From Candidatus Nezhaarchaeales archaeon (lineage in GTDB: Archaea; Thermoproteota; Methanomethylicia; Nezhaarchaeales; JAWCJE01), in NCBI GenBank assembly GCA_038853715.1, contig JAWCJE010000012.1:1-50972 (forward strand): 50,972 bases of DNA, written 5' to 3'. Below, piece by piece: positions 2,097 through 45,061 of the stretch; position 1 is the first letter of the stretch, and every line of letters begins with the position of its first letter. The position numbers and the translations under genes were made by a program. Under the pieces are notes generated by a model. It did not search any database and had not been told where the DNA came from. It saw only the letters and a list, made by a program, of their open reading frames with translations.

Positions 2097-3011
2097 TTAG
2101 GGATGTTGACCCTTAACGTACTCGTAGGCGCTTAACGCGGCGATTGCTCCTTGTCCGCAGGCAACTATAAGCTGGTTGCTTATCCCTGTTATGTCGCCGC
2201 ATGCAAATAGCCCTGGGATGTTGGTCTTCATGTGGTGATCGACTTCAACGTAGCCTTCACTATTTAACTTAACGCCTAAGCCTGTAAGGAGTGTTTTATC
2301 CACCTCTTGGCCTATGGCTACGAATACTCCGTTTACCGTTAACAACTCCTCCTTACCGTTCTCCTCGTTCTTTAACCTTAAGCCGTTAACGAGTTTATCT
2401 CCTAAGATTTCGATGACGGTATAGGGGGTCTTAAAGTTAATGGCAGCCTTCTCGGCCTTATTAACCAGTACTTCATCGGCTTTAAACGTCCTCCCCCGAT
2501 GGATAAGGTAGACGGTTGGACATAGCTCCTTTAGGTATAAGGCGTAGGTGAAAGCAGTATTCCCCCCTCCAACGACGGCTACGGTTTTACCCTTAAATAG
2601 GGGCCCATCGCAGGTTGCACAGTAGCTTATACCTCTACCGATGAATTCTTCCTCGCCTTTAACGTTAAGCTTCCTATAGTTTGTCCCTATGGCTAGTATT
2701 ACTGCCTTAGCTTCGATAAAGCCGCCCGAAGCTAGTTTCACCTTGAAAAGTTCTCCAAGCTTCCTAATCTCCGTTACTTCATCCATTACCATTTTAACGT
2801 TTAGGGCTTTACAGTGTTCTTCGAAGCGTTGGGCAAGCGTTAACCCTGATACGCCCATAAGCCCTGGGTAATTTTCAATTATTGGCGCGTTAACTATTTG
2901 GCCTCCGATACTAGCCTTCTCTATTAAAACCACGTCGAGGTTCTTCCTAGCTAGGTATATGGCGGCGGTAATACCGGCTCCACCACCTCCTACTATGGCT
3001 ACCTCATACAT
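2097..3011 (-). CDS. trxB: Thioredoxin reductase
   Basis: A 304-residue flavoprotein that transfers electrons from NAD(P)H to thioredoxin or a glutaredoxin-like partner in the cytoplasm. The FAD-binding GGGGAG motif is at residues 8-13. The redox-active CATC is at residues 131-134, followed by the NAD(P)-binding GGGNTA near 148-153. The C-terminal GLFACGDI motif contacts FAD. Length is normal for low-molecular-weight TrxB. The ATG start is the family's usual N-terminus, immediately before the first beta strand. The gene lies about 38 bases downstream of elp3 on the same strand, so co-transcription is possible. Confidence 0.93.
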   Translation of the reverse strand: MYEVAIVGGGGAGITAAIYLARKNLDVVLIEKASIGGQIVNAPIIENYPGLMGVSGLTLAQRFEEHCKALNVKMVMDEVTEIRKLGELFKVKLASGGFIEAKAVILAIGTNYRKLNVKGEEEFIGRGISYCATCDGPLFKGKTVAVVGGGNTAFTYALYLKELCPTVYLIHRGRTFKADEVLVNKAEKAAINFKTPYTVIEILGDKLVNGLRLKNEENGKEELLTVNGVFVAIGQEVDKTLLTGLGVKLNSEGYVEVDHHMKTNIPGLFACGDITGISNQLIVACGQGAIAALSAYEYVKGQHP

Positions 3012-3049
3012 CGAGCTATAACCCCGCGTAAAACCGCCTCTAACCCTTA

Positions 3050-4486
3050 CTACCTTAACCTCTTATACATGTATGGCGAGTTAGGGTACTTCCTATATCC
3101 AAAAGCCCTATAGTAGGGTTTCGCTCCGATCCCGCTTGTAACTAGTAGTAGGCGTAGGTCGTATTCCTCTTTAGCTATTCTTTCAACCTCGTTTAAAAGG
3201 CGTGCTCCAAAACCTTTATGCTGCCATCCTTCAACGGTTCTAACGCCGACTGGTATTTGCGGCCCGCATACCTTAAGCTCCCTTAGTAAGGCAGCCTTCC
3301 TTCCAACCTCGGGTCTATGGGCTAGTTGACTTGGTATTCTAAGCCTAGCGAAGCCTATTAGGAGGTCTTGGATTACGTCCTCAAAGGATACGAATACTTC
3401 GATCCCCATGCTAGCTTCGTATTTTTCGACTAGTAGCTTTACGTTTTCAGGTTTAGCGGTTATACCCCTCTTAAGCATGGCTATACCTACTTCACGGCAC
3501 CTTATACACCTACACTTAAGGCCTCGGCGTTTAAGCTCCTCGAGTACGAGCTCCCTAAGGTTGCTCTTCCTAACTCCAGCGCTTATTAACTGGGCCGGTA
3601 CATCCCTTTGAACCCGCATAACCCTTATCCACTTAGGAATTAGGGGTTTAACGCGGCAAAGTAAATCTATAACCTCATCGACCTCTAGCGCCTTATACTC
3701 GGCTTTCTTCCAGAGCTCGTAGAGCTCGGAACCAGGTAGTACTAGGGTTGGGTATATTTTTAAGCCGTCGGGCCTGAAGTCGGGGTCTTCAAACACGGTT
3801 TTAAAGGCCTCAAAATCTAGCTCCGGGGTGCTACCGGGTAAACCGGGCATTAAGTGGTATGTTACCTTTAACCCAGCATCTTTAAGGATGCGGGTGGCTA
3901 TTATCGAGTCCTTTACGGTATGTCCACGTTTAACGCCCTTAAGTATATCGTCGTAAACGGTTTGAACACCTAATTCAACCTTGGTTGCTCCAAGCTTCAA
4001 CATGAAGTCAACGTGCTGCTCCTTAGCCCAATCAGGCCTAGTTTCAAAGGTCATACCTACGCAGCGGATCTTAGCCTTCTCGTTCCTCTTCTGAGCCTCG
4101 CCTAGGTTAATGGTTCCGTTACGTCTAGGCTTAGGAAAACGGTTCATGGCTTCAAGGCACATAGTGATAAACCACTCCTGGTAATCGAGGGGCATTGAGG
4201 GGAAGGTTCCCCCCATAATTATTAAATCGACCTTTGAAGGTGTATGGCCAAGCCTAGTATACTGGGTTAACCTTAACCTTACCTGCTCGTAGGGGTCGTA
4301 GTCGCACTGCGCAGCCCTCATTAAGGCTGGCTCCTTACCATAATAGCTTTGAGGGGTGAAGGGTGGGCCTCCGAAGCAGTAGAGGCATTTACCGTGCGGG
4401 CAGGGCCAAGGCTTAGCCATAACTGCTACGACTGAAACTCCTGAAAGCATTCTTACGGGTTTTTTAAGCGTCGTTAAGGTCTGCAA
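3050..4486 (-). CDS. elp3: Elp3-like tRNA uridine(34) carboxymethyl transferase, short N-terminus
   Basis: Radical SAM enzyme fused to a GNAT acetyltransferase domain. In the family it uses acetyl-CoA and SAM to build the cm5 group on wobble U34 of tRNA. The cluster cysteines are in CPHGKCLYC (residues 29-37). A zinc-type CRCIRC motif lies in the middle, and the GNAT domain occupies about the last 110 residues (GWQHKGFGARLL). At 478 residues it is shorter than typical archaeal Elp3 because it begins almost at the conserved KKPVR...SGV block. The TTG start is supported by GGGGAGG about 9 bases upstream, and the neighbouring gene ends 17 bases before it, so the short N-terminus looks real. It follows a Trm9-like methyltransferase gene. 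Confidence 0.9.
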   Translation of the reverse strand: MQTLTTLKKPVRMLSGVSVVAVMAKPWPCPHGKCLYCFGGPPFTPQSYYGKEPALMRAAQCDYDPYEQVRLRLTQYTRLGHTPSKVDLIIMGGTFPSMPLDYQEWFITMCLEAMNRFPKPRRNGTINLGEAQKRNEKAKIRCVGMTFETRPDWAKEQHVDFMLKLGATKVELGVQTVYDDILKGVKRGHTVKDSIIATRILKDAGLKVTYHLMPGLPGSTPELDFEAFKTVFEDPDFRPDGLKIYPTLVLPGSELYELWKKAEYKALEVDEVIDLLCRVKPLIPKWIRVMRVQRDVPAQLISAGVRKSNLRELVLEELKRRGLKCRCIRCREVGIAMLKRGITAKPENVKLLVEKYEASMGIEVFVSFEDVIQDLLIGFARLRIPSQLAHRPEVGRKAALLRELKVCGPQIPVGVRTVEGWQHKGFGARLLNEVERIAKEEYDLRLLLVTSGIGAKPYYRAFGYRKYPNSPYMYKRLR

Positions 4487-4503
4487 GCACTTTAACCTCC
4501 CCT

Positions 4504-5262
4504 TTAAGTCTTTATGGCTATAGCCGCTACGTTCTCGGCGAAAAACCTTGCTTTAACCCTATACGCGTACACCCTTTCAACGTTAAACCCGCCAGCCTCT
4601 AGAAGCTTACGTAGTTCGTACCGGTTAAATAGGTGGTAAAACCTTACATATTTCTTTCCCTTATAGCTCCAAGGGACGTATACGTCTCCATATTCCGCTA
4701 CACTACTAAGTAGCTTCTTTAATAGGCTTTTAAGGAGTTTAAAGGTGAACCTCGGTTGCCATCGGCTCCAGGCGCTTATAATGAGTCTTCCACCCTTCTT
4801 TAAAACCCTTAAAGACTCCCTTACCGCTTTAACCCTTAAAGCGTTGAAAGGTATGTGGTGGATGGTGGCTAGGTTTAAGGCTCCATCGAAGCACGCCTCC
4901 TTAAAGGGTAGGCTACACGCATCAGCAGCTACTACGTGTAGCCTACCCCAAAGCCCTAACCTCCTAGCTTTATCCGCTAGGATCTTATTAAGCTCCACGG
5001 CGAAATCTACACCTACAACTTCAAATCCTTTCTCGGCTAGGGGGATGGCGTGACGTCCGTTACCGGATCCTACGTCGATTATTGAAGCGTTTAAACCTAA
5101 GCCTTCAGTTACTGAAAAGCATAAGTCCCAGGGCCTTCGCCTAACCTGGTTAAAGGAGGGGGCGATAGCGTTAAAGGCCTCCATTACCTGCCTCCTTAAC
5201 CTATCGGCTAAGGCTTCGATACTCGGTTTCAAGTTTTTCTCCGAGCATTTTGCTTCGAACAA
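4504..5262 (-). CDS. Trm9/ALKBH8-type tRNA wobble-uridine methyltransferase
   Basis: Class I SAM methyltransferase of 252 residues. The SAM-binding glycine motif is IIDVGSGNGRHAIPLA (about 81-96). The post-motif LATIHHIP and the C-terminal VPWSYKGKKYVRFYHLF are typical of Trm9/ALKBH8 enzymes, which methylate cm5U34 to mcm5U34. The gene precedes elp3 by 17 bases on the same strand, so the two probably form one transcript and act in sequence. In other organisms Trm9 is activated by Trm112; no Trm112 is visible here. The start appears to be TTG without a strong ribosome site, so the exact N-terminus is uncertain. Confidence 0.8.
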   Translation of the reverse strand: MFEAKCSEKNLKPSIEALADRLRRQVMEAFNAIAPSFNQVRRRPWDLCFSVTEGLGLNASIIDVGSGNGRHAIPLAEKGFEVVGVDFAVELNKILADKARRLGLWGRLHVVAADACSLPFKEACFDGALNLATIHHIPFNALRVKAVRESLRVLKKGGRLIISAWSRWQPRFTFKLLKSLLKKLLSSVAEYGDVYVPWSYKGKKYVRFYHLFNRYELRKLLEAGGFNVERVYAYRVKARFFAENVAAIAIKT

Positions 5263-5429
5263 CTTAATAAAGCCAGACCCTTTAACCTAGCGACTTGCCC
5301 CGCGTGAGCTTATTAAGGTAGAAGAGCTGAAGAACGTCTAGCCGTGGTGATGTGTTTCTTCGCGTAATTGCTAAATGGTTTCACGGATGGCTTGAGTAAG
5401 GCTAAATAAGTGGGTTTATTAACCTTTTA

Positions 5430-6188
5430 ATGAGCCTAATGGTTAGGTTAACGCCCCTTCGAAGGGAGATCGCCGTTAGAATGCTTGGTGAGATCGCGTT
5501 CTCTAGCGATATAGGTGGGGCTTTAAGGCTTTGGCGTGAACGCTTCTTAACCTCTAAGGTCGACCTTGCGCGTCACTTAAAGCTTTCACCATCGGTTATA
5601 AGCGACTATGAGAGCGGTAGACGGAGATCGCCGGGTGTTAAGGTGCTTAAACGCTTTGTACTGGCGTTAATGGAGATCGATGAGAAACGTGGTGAACGCG
5701 TACTTAAGGATTTAGCCTACTTACTGGTAGGCTCGGAGCCGCTTCGATCCGCTATTCTCGATGCGCGTAACTTTACGGAGGCTCCATCAGTTTTTGAATT
5801 CTGTAAGTTTATTAAGGCTAGGATCTTCACCTGTGAAGACCTATGGGGTGATGATGTTACTGGCTACGTAGTGCTTCATAGCTCTAAGCTCCTACTGGAA
5901 ACACCGGCCTACGACTACGTGAAGCTTCAAAGCCTAATAGCCGGTAAGGCTGTGGTGTTTGCTGATGCACCTTCAAGCCAACCGTTAATGGTATCTGTTA
6001 AGCTTATGCAGGCTAAGCCAGCCGTAGTAGTCCTTCACGGTTTACGGAGTATTGATAAGACTTCGAGAGCGATAGCTAACTCTGAGCAAATACCGTTAGC
6101 TACGGTAAGGGGTTTTTCAACGGTGGATTTAATTAAGGCGTTAAGAAGCTTTAAACCGGGTGAACAACTTTTTACGTCGGCTAAGTGA
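5430..6188 (+). CDS. HTH transcriptional regulator, COG1709-like
   Basis: A 252-residue protein with an XRE/lambda-repressor-type helix-turn-helix at about residues 40-75 (KVDLARHLKLSPSVISDYES). The C-terminal domain, about 150 residues, is of a type found with this HTH in archaea (COG1709-like) and has no assigned activity. It probably binds DNA as a dimer. It is divergent from the Trm9-elp3 operon, and deoxyhypusine synthase starts 41 bases downstream from its own promoter. ATG at 5430 is used; a second in-frame ATG at 5442 is possible. Target genes are unknown. Confidence 0.75.
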   Translation: MSLMVRLTPLRREIAVRMLGEIAFSSDIGGALRLWRERFLTSKVDLARHLKLSPSVISDYESGRRRSPGVKVLKRFVLALMEIDEKRGERVLKDLAYLLVGSEPLRSAILDARNFTEAPSVFEFCKFIKARIFTCEDLWGDDVTGYVVLHSSKLLLETPAYDYVKLQSLIAGKAVVFADAPSSQPLMVSVKLMQAKPAVVVLHGLRSIDKTSRAIANSEQIPLATVRGFSTVDLIKALRSFKPGEQLFTSAK

Positions 6189-6229: not shown

Positions 6230-7297
6230 ATGAAGGAGGAAATCCTTAGGGAGAAGGTTGAACATTTAAATTTAGAGCTTGATGAGGATGTAGGTAAGCT
6301 TGTTGAGGCCTTCCATAAAACCTCCTTTCAGAGTAGGAATATTGCACGTTGCTACGACGTCTACGCCGCTATGCTAAACGATCCGAGTAGGGTTACCATA
6401 TTTTTAGGCTTAGCGGGAGCTATGGTTCCAGCCGGTATGAGGAAGGTTATAAGGGATATGGTGGAATACGGGATGGTGGACGTACTAGTTTCAACCGGCG
6501 CTAACCTTTATCACGATATCTGCGAGGCTTACGGGGTTCACCACTACCTAGGATCCCCGAACGTTGACGACGCCTTCTTAAGAAGGATCAGGGTGGATAG
6601 GGTTTACGATACCTTCACCGACGATGAGGGCTTAGAGCGCGTAGATAACATAATAGCTCAGATAGTTGACGAGATGGAGGTAGGCGTATACTCGAGTAGG
6701 GAGTTCCTAGCTTTACTAGGTGGACGCTTAAACGATGATAGCTCCATACTAGCCACCGCGGTAAGGAGAGGGGTACCGGTTTTCTGCCCCGCGATAAGTG
6801 ATAGCTCAATCGGTATAGCCTTAGTTAAACACTATTTAAGGTGTGAGGAGCGTGGTAGGAAGCCCGTCGTTATTGATACCGTGAAGGATTGCTACGAGAT
6901 AATGCAGATTAGGCTTAAATCGAGGAAGAGCGGAGCCGTATACATTGGTGGGGGTGTACCGAAAAACTTCATCCAGCAGATACCCGTAACCCTAGATATT
7001 TTAGGGTATAAGAACCCCGGCTTCGCTCATGACTTCGCTATCCAGATAACCATGGATGACCCTAAATGGGGAGGCCTCTCCGGCGCTACTATTGAGGAAG
7101 CACAGTCTTGGGGCAAGGTTAAAGCGGATGCGACGAAGGCTACGGTGTACGTGGATGCCACCATAGGGCTACCCTTAATAGTCGGTGCTTTAATGAAGAC
7201 GCAGAGGGCTGCATTAAAGCGGCGTGGCAGGTTATTATTCAATTGGGATAAGGGTAAGCTGATTGATTTACGCGTAGAAAAAGACGTATCAGCGTAA
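6230..7297 (+). CDS. dhs: Deoxyhypusine synthase
   Basis: NAD-dependent enzyme that transfers the aminobutyl group of spermidine to a lysine of aIF5A, the first step of hypusine formation. At 355 residues it is slightly longer than many archaeal homologues. The family blocks are present: FLGLAGAMVPAGMR, STGANLYHDI, CPAISDSSIG and a C-terminal WGKVKADATKATVYVDATIG, which includes the region of the catalytic lysine. The gene follows a TATA box at 6193 and has little leader. An agmatinase gene for putrescine synthesis is 2.6 kb downstream. Confidence 0.93.
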   Translation: MKEEILREKVEHLNLELDEDVGKLVEAFHKTSFQSRNIARCYDVYAAMLNDPSRVTIFLGLAGAMVPAGMRKVIRDMVEYGMVDVLVSTGANLYHDICEAYGVHHYLGSPNVDDAFLRRIRVDRVYDTFTDDEGLERVDNIIAQIVDEMEVGVYSSREFLALLGGRLNDDSSILATAVRRGVPVFCPAISDSSIGIALVKHYLRCEERGRKPVVIDTVKDCYEIMQIRLKSRKSGAVYIGGGVPKNFIQQIPVTLDILGYKNPGFAHDFAIQITMDDPKWGGLSGATIEEAQSWGKVKADATKATVYVDATIGLPLIVGALMKTQRAALKRRGRLLFNWDKGKLIDLRVEKDVSA

Positions 7298-44248: not shown

Positions 44249-45061
44249 GTGCTTAGGGTGGCTCTCCACTTCGTGGGTATGGGGTTATATAGTGAGAAGG
44301 GGCTTACGCTTGAGGGGCTTGAGTTAGCTAGAAGGGCTGATGAAGTTTATGTTGAGCTATACACTAGCCTAATGCCTGGTTTAACTCTTAAGAGCCTGGA
44401 GGGTCTCATCGGGAGGAGGGTTATTGAGCTTAAAAGGGAGGATCTTGAGGGGAGGGGGGCCGGTAAAATTATTGATGAGGCCTCTAAGCTTGAGGTGGTT
44501 ATATTAGTACCGGGCGATCCTTTTATCGCTACTACGCATTTAGCTCTCCACCTCGAAGCGGTTAAGAAGGGTTGTGGGGGACGCGTTATTCACGGGGTAT
44601 CGATAGCTTCAGCCGTCCCAAGCGTAACGGGGCTTTCATTCTACAAGTTTGGTAGGACGGTTACGATGGTTTATCCGGATCATGGTTCAGCCTCTGAGGA
44701 GGCTTACGAGGTTATTAAGACGAATAGGCAGCTAGGCCTCCATACGTTAATCCTCCTCGACATTAGGAGGGAACGTGGGCTCTACATGACGATAGCCGAT
44801 GCGCTTAAACTCCTCTTATCGGTGGAGGAGCGTAGACGTGAAGGAGTAGTTACTGATCGTACGTTAGCGGTAGGCGTAGCTAGGGTTGGAGGGCGGAATG
44901 TGGAGGTTAAGGCCGATATGGTTAAGGAGCTACTTTCATATGGTTTCGGGCCGCCTCCCCATGTACTCGTATTCCCTGGGCGGCTACACTTCGTTGAGGC
45001 TGAAGCCTTAATACTGCTGGCTAAAGCGCCTAAAAACCTCATTGAGAGTCAACAACGGTAG
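44249..45061 (+). CDS. dphB: Diphthine synthase (Dph5/DphB)
   Basis: SAM-dependent tetrapyrrole-methylase-fold enzyme that methylates the modified histidine of aEF2 during diphthamide synthesis. The N-terminal block HFVGMGLYSEKGLTLEGLEL, the EVYVELYTSLMPG strand and VPGDPFIATTHLAL are family signatures, with VIHGVSIASAVPSVTGLSFY and VTMVYPD later. GTG 44249 gives 270 residues. The GTG at 44258 is better spaced from the AGGGG and would remove three residues. Single gene in a non-operon setting. Confidence 0.92.
   Translation: MLRVALHFVGMGLYSEKGLTLEGLELARRADEVYVELYTSLMPGLTLKSLEGLIGRRVIELKREDLEGRGAGKIIDEASKLEVVILVPGDPFIATTHLALHLEAVKKGCGGRVIHGVSIASAVPSVTGLSFYKFGRTVTMVYPDHGSASEEAYEVIKTNRQLGLHTLILLDIRRERGLYMTIADALKLLLSVEERRREGVVTDRTLAVGVARVGGRNVEVKADMVKELLSYGFGPPPHVLVFPGRLHFVEAEALILLAKAPKNLIESQQR

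Follow-up and report, generated by a model that had tools for sequence, protein, structure and literature searches.

An Elp3 gene without the N-terminal tRNA-binding extension is paired with a Trm9-like methyltransferase gene in a Nezhaarchaeales archaeon

A stretch of 50,972 nucleotides from a Candidatus Nezhaarchaeales archaeon (the window, meaning the whole stretch analysed) carries genes for Elp3 and a Trm9-like methyltransferase 17 bases apart, which raises the question of whether the two act together on the tRNA wobble uridine. An earlier reading, made from the sequence alone, had proposed that they are an operon giving an mcm5U-like base by a minimal two-gene pathway. The coordinates, order and 17-base spacing that it gave for the two open reading frames were right, and both frames were found on the minus strand. 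The features that concern us are as follows.

2097-3011, minus strand: thioredoxin-reductase-like gene, a neighbour 38 bases downstream of elp3
3050-4486, minus strand: Elp3 with radical SAM and GNAT (KAT) domains, 478 aa, TTG start, without the N-terminal tRNA-binding extension
4487-4503, minus strand: intergenic gap of 17 bases, read from the sequence, with a ribosome-binding-like stretch GGGGAGG at 4502-4496
4504-5262, minus strand: Trm9-like class I SAM methyltransferase, 252 aa, from the list of open reading frames; TTG start at 5262, tentative
5430-6188, plus strand: divergent helix-turn-helix gene, a neighbour for which no pathway role is claimed
6230-7297: deoxyhypusine synthase-like gene (PF01916), near the Elp3/methyltransferase pair
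44249-45061: dph5, far from elp3

The methyltransferase gene comes first and elp3 follows, with the GGGGAGG stretch nine bases ahead of the elp3 TTG. The start codon of the methyltransferase is uncertain because start points differ among its relatives. With 343.0 bits, the thioredoxin-reductase-like gene narrowly missed the TIGR01292 cut-off of 343.45 bits; it was considered as a third member of the operon and dropped, being absent from the other loci searched. The deoxyhypusine synthase-like gene is another translation-factor modification gene near the pair. Rfam gave no match in the window, nor in 2900-5600, and scans for sigma-70 promoters and terminators, which do not cover archaeal promoters, showed no excess over chance expectation.

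The 478-aa frame can be identified with certainty as an Elp3. It matched TIGR01211 with 682.8 bits (cut-off, 350), and no other protein of its genome exceeded that cut-off, making it the sole full Elp3 there. The closest solved structures were M. infernus Elp3 (E 1e-161), the eukaryotic Elp3s and D. mccartyi Elp3 (E 3e-118). The cluster cysteines C29, C34 and C37 and the zinc-linker cysteines C325, C327 and C330 were cysteine in 36/36 rows of an Elp3 alignment, a few rows of which are overlapping loci of a single gene. M. infernus Elp3 forms cm5U in vitro (passages of PMC5372719 and PMC13315578), and its activity requires the acetyl-CoA-site residues K150, K266, Q461 and Y517 (a passage of PMC6367351). 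Using a numbering offset derived by hand from the structure-database alignment, we found K150, K266 and Y517 kept as K85, K207 and Y458 in the window Elp3. The position of Q461 is occupied by E403, similar to E386 of D. mccartyi Elp3, and that of H463 by K405; the H463A variant of the M. infernus enzyme still hydrolyses acetyl-CoA, as a passage of PMC6367351 states. The window Elp3 thus shares its domain order, cluster, zinc site and KAT residues with M. infernus Elp3 (6IA8, 6IAD, 6IAZ), which however has a basic extension, and H463 where the window protein has lysine. D. mccartyi Elp3 (5L7J, 5L7L) is the more distant of the two by E-value, but it resembles the window protein in having no extension and a glutamate in the acetyl-CoA pocket.

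Judged by its sequence, the unusual part of the pair is this Elp3 without the tRNA-gripping front end. The long-form Elp3 of most archaea and of eukaryotes carries an N-terminal tRNA-binding extension, whereas the window Elp3 has none. Its TIGR01211 match begins at model position 57, and therefore the extension is missing; upstream of the TTG the frame stays open for 22 more codons, which run into the methyltransferase gene. A profile of the extension (A3) gave nothing convincing in the same genome (G000; best E 0.18) and nothing better than E 0.018 in the genomes G001, G003, G009 and G028, and it recovered the extension from each of the four genomes used as positive controls, with E-values of 1e-16 to 1e-28. 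In M. infernus, the basic extension confers the affinity for tRNA (~50 nM) and also supports tRNA-induced acetyl-CoA hydrolysis, according to passages of PMC6367351. The same source reports that D. mccartyi Elp3, without an extension, still binds tRNA, although more weakly (~1410 nM).

The methyltransferase is very probably Trm9-type, as judged from its residues and from a profile search of solved structures. It matched Pfam Methyltransf_11 with 69.8 bits (cut-off, 21.2); no match to a Trm9-specific model came from the libraries searched, and no NCBIfam cut-off was reached. In a single-sequence search of the PDB, Yarrowia Trm9 (5cm2_Z) ranked second. Its alignment spans residues 40-228 and takes in the C-terminal VPW...R[FY]YHL[FY] segment, whereas most other matches aligned the SAM domain alone. 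With a profile built from 20 relatives, 5cm2_Z became the top match at 102.6 bits, the runner-up reaching 78.2. W45, H135, H136, R207, H210 and N244 were invariant in these relatives, and R41 and Y209 were kept in at least 90%. Matched by motif, R41, H135/H136, R207, Y209 and N244 correspond to yeast Trm9 R29, H115, R241, Y243 and N271, the alanine mutants of which lose tRNA affinity and activity (a passage of PMC5372719). An AlphaFold model made from a three-row alignment was of modest confidence (mean pLDDT, 62.8). With this model, Foldseek placed 5cm2_Z first at 26% identity, its E-value tied with that of 3sm3, and VIA-align showed no Trm9 among its best 50 entries, all of which lay within ~3 Z units. 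The deep nodes of the methyltransferase tree were unsupported (0.008), so that the window protein was placed neither inside nor outside the Trm9 clade; the partner of Yarrowia Trm9 was a Methanomassiliicoccales protein (0.86), and the window protein showed no specific grouping with Trm9. The R[FY]YHL-type motif was present in 26 of the 50 methyltransferases read outside the class and absent from the other 24, indicating that the family passes gradually into proteins of greater divergence.

The gene pair was followed in 41 genomes, namely its own and 40 of the same class or order. An orthologue of the methyltransferase (E ≤ 1e-30) was present in 34 and Elp3 (E ≤ 1e-60) in 36 of them. Both genes occurred in 32 genomes, and in 27 of these they were adjacent and on the same strand with the methyltransferase first; the pairing is not due to chance. 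In several relatives, an available elp3 start codon gives a 4-base overlap with the methyltransferase stop. The genes were non-adjacent in G002, G004 and G005, in G018, where 1.3 kb separates them, and in G027, where they lie on different contigs. In the first three, all of family f3, the methyltransferase gene nevertheless keeps the helix-turn-helix neighbour seen in the window, which supports its orthology. A search of the genome contigs with the single methyltransferase protein gave nine loci, of which only L004 was a clear relative. Outside the class, 36 genomes have both a full-length Trm9-like match and a short Elp3; a hand count from the coordinates showed the two genes no more than 150 bases apart in 14 of them.

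Eukaryotic Trm9 needs Trm112 as its activator. A Trm112 gene is present in the genome of the window, apart from the pair (48 bits; cut-off, 22), and the relatives surveyed for it, together with this genome, gave a Trm112 match (E ≤ 0.001) in 37/41 cases, 34 of them over the cut-off. An NcsA/Ncs6-type thiolase (TIGR00269) is also encoded elsewhere in the genome. The Elp1 family (PF04762) gave no match there, and the control genomes were equally silent; that archaea lack the remaining Elp proteins is a published rule (a passage of Grosjean et al. 2008, PMC2584109).

We consider it quite probable that the two genes form a wobble-uridine modification operon giving an mcm5U-type methyl-ester base. 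Elp3 would use its radical SAM chemistry and acetyl-CoA to turn U34 in a subset of tRNAs into 5-carboxymethyluridine (cm5U), and the Trm9-type enzyme, as a heterodimer with Trm112, would methylate the carboxylate to give mcm5U. The thiolase could give mcm5s2U in some tRNAs, and the wobble base may thus end as mcm5U, as mcm5s2U or in a form processed further. The lack of the extension and the lysine in place of H463 count against this reading, and the methyl-ester bases reported in archaeal tRNAs (mchm5U and mchm5Um; PMC7668247) count for it. From sequence comparison we infer the two activities, the partnership with Trm112, the nucleoside and the set of tRNAs. The chemistry of the sequence-only reading is therefore likely to be right, and its putative operon of elp3 with a Trm9-type gene is supported by gene identity, residues and linkage. 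Its "minimal two-gene pathway" does not hold, since the genes for Trm112 and the U34 thiolase lie elsewhere in the genome.

The association between the short Elp3 and Trm9-like genes was surveyed in 299 genomes of the phylum. A Trm9-like match (E ≤ 1e-25) was found in 82/299 and Elp3 (E ≤ 1e-60) in 250/299. The start of the Elp3 match was obtained for 229 of these 250 genomes (149 + 80), the 21 left out all belonging to one family. We called an Elp3 short when its TIGR01211 match started at position 35 or later, and a Trm9-like protein full-length when its match reached profile position 219 or more. The Elp3 of G027 is a fragment that begins at 140, and this genome was therefore excluded from the counts. 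Outside the class of the window, a full-length Trm9-like protein occurred in 36/68 genomes with a short Elp3 against 0/133 with the long form, as counted with the strictest length filter, chosen post hoc, and over families and lineages that are not independent. With a match end of at least 205, the counts were 39/68 and 8/133, and with no length filter 41/68 and 13/133, so the association weakens as the filter is relaxed. At least four of the short calls are doubtful: inspection showed an extension in G250 (f42), G262 belongs to that family too, and the Elp3 genes of G155 and G207 lie at a contig end. All four fall in the cell of short Elp3 without Trm9. Inside the class of the window the rule fails, as 18 genomes whose best Elp3 is long-form carry Trm9, three of which (G002, G004 and G005) have a short Elp3 too; in family f6 the Elp3 that accompanies Trm9 is long-form, and in f3 both forms of Elp3 occur. 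In the Elp3 tree, rooted at the midpoint without an outgroup, the window Elp3 groups with short Elp3s of other families, which also neighbour Trm9-like genes.

Other readings of the pair differ in where the pathway would end or in what the enzymes would act on. The methyl ester may be an intermediate, the final wobble base being ncm5U, cnm5U, mchm5U or a 2'-O-methylated derivative instead of mcm5U(s2). Archaeal tRNAs offer precedents, namely ncm5U34 in Thermoplasma acidophilum (a passage of PMC5372719), cnm5U in several euryarchaea (a passage of PMC7694415) and the methyl-ester wobble bases mchm5U and mchm5Um at position 34 (a passage of PMC7668247). However, the operon showed no gene that was noticed as serving a later step, and no enzyme is known to form ncm5U or cnm5U; we regard this outcome as somewhat unlikely. 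It is also conceivable, but quite unlikely, that the methyltransferase has a different substrate, be it another tRNA, an rRNA, a protein or a small molecule, and that elp3 merely lies in a general cluster of translation genes. Class I enzymes of the Methyltransf_11 type are hard to assign, the deep part of the methyltransferase tree has no supported nodes, and other translation-factor modification genes do lie close by, with deoxyhypusine synthase in the window and, in G001 and G003, dph5 immediately behind elp3. The retained Trm9-specific residues and C-terminal lid motif, and the recurrence of the linkage to elp3 in distant families, argue against such a substrate.

The missing extension itself invites the suggestion that the short Elp3 has lost tRNA modification and has another role, such as protein acetylation, since M. 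infernus Elp3 requires the extension to bind tRNA with high affinity (as the cited passage of PMC6367351 has it) and none was found in the genome of the window. We hold this to be very unlikely, because the tested radical SAM and acetyl-CoA residues are all kept in the short forms, H463 excepted, the window Elp3 is the only full Elp3 available to its genome, and a bacterial enzyme equally devoid of the extension, DmcElp3, binds tRNA, if more weakly (same source, in part). Within the favoured reading, in which both enzymes serve the wobble uridine, the Elp3 may have lost the extension or never had it, and may act in a physical unit with Trm9 and Trm112, the methyltransferase pair binding the tRNA and taking cm5U34 over directly. 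This idea is rather improbable on present evidence; if true, the three proteins would make up a minimal mcm5U synthase and offer a prokaryotic counterpart of the Elongator accessory subunits.

An archaeal Elp3-Trm9 pairing has been proposed before. In the passages that bear on it, Grosjean et al. 2008 (PMC2584109) described archaeal Elp3 and Trm9 homologues, clustered in Sulfolobus solfataricus, and proposed a product similar to mcm5s2U; a 2017 review of Trm112 (PMC5372719, in part) repeated the pairing and called its distribution limited, and a passage of another review (PMC7694415), citing van Tran 2018, states that archaeal Trm9-Trm112 turns cm5U into mcm5U. By its published description, known to us in passages, the S. 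solfataricus cluster resembles the window in having clustered Elp3 and Trm9 genes, with Elp3 alone of the six Elp proteins; in the window, compared with that description, the methyltransferase gene directly precedes elp3, an order kept in 27/32 relatives. The eukaryotic Trm9-Trm112 enzymes (S. cerevisiae, Y. lipolytica 5CM2 and the ALKBH8 domain) share with the window protein the class I fold, the R/H/R/Y/N residues, the C-terminal lid motif (RYYHLY in these enzymes, RFYHLF in the window protein) and a Trm112 in the genome. They differ in sequence (26% identity in the Foldseek alignment), and only the window gene is linked to elp3. ALKBH8 furthermore has fused AlkB/RRM domains, which the window methyltransferase does not.

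The pair is real, conserved and functionally coherent, and the short Elp3 is the part of most note. Titles, abstract openings and passages gave no link between a short Elp3 and Trm9, most subscription papers being outside the scope of the search; within that scope, we found neither the missing extension of this Elp3 nor the association described before. The archaeal pairing is extended here by a gene order conserved through a whole archaeal class, and mcm5U-type wobble bases are therefore probably commoner in archaea than the "limited distribution" mentioned in PMC5372719 (in part) would suggest. The association of Trm9-like genes with the short form offers a concrete hypothesis for how a lone Elp3 could work without its tRNA-binding extension.

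Some relatives showed further arrangements of these genes. In L149 (G118:C2, frame 45-2207), a 721-aa open frame contains the Elp3 match; the ~190 residues ahead of Elp3 were considered as a fused domain and rejected, as by eye they look like read-through opposite another gene, and neither of the two long open frames inspected (G118 and G216) was an Elp3-methyltransferase fusion. In G003 and G001 (L157:3984-6258 and L158:4188-6465), the gene for diphthine synthase, dph5, begins within the end of elp3, so that the genes run trm9-like, elp3, dph5. In eukaryotes, Dph3/Kti11 connects the diphthamide and Elongator pathways. Four f3 genomes, G004, G005, G002 and G008 (L031, L032, L034 and L037), have two Elp3 genes each. 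The long-form f3 Elp3 has glutamate at the K266 position and valine at the Q461 position in 4/4 cases, and the short f3 Elp3s aligned (L059-L062, from G002, G005, G004 and G007) keep lysine and glutamate there. The residues suggest that the long f3 paralogue may have lost the use of acetyl-CoA or changed its function.
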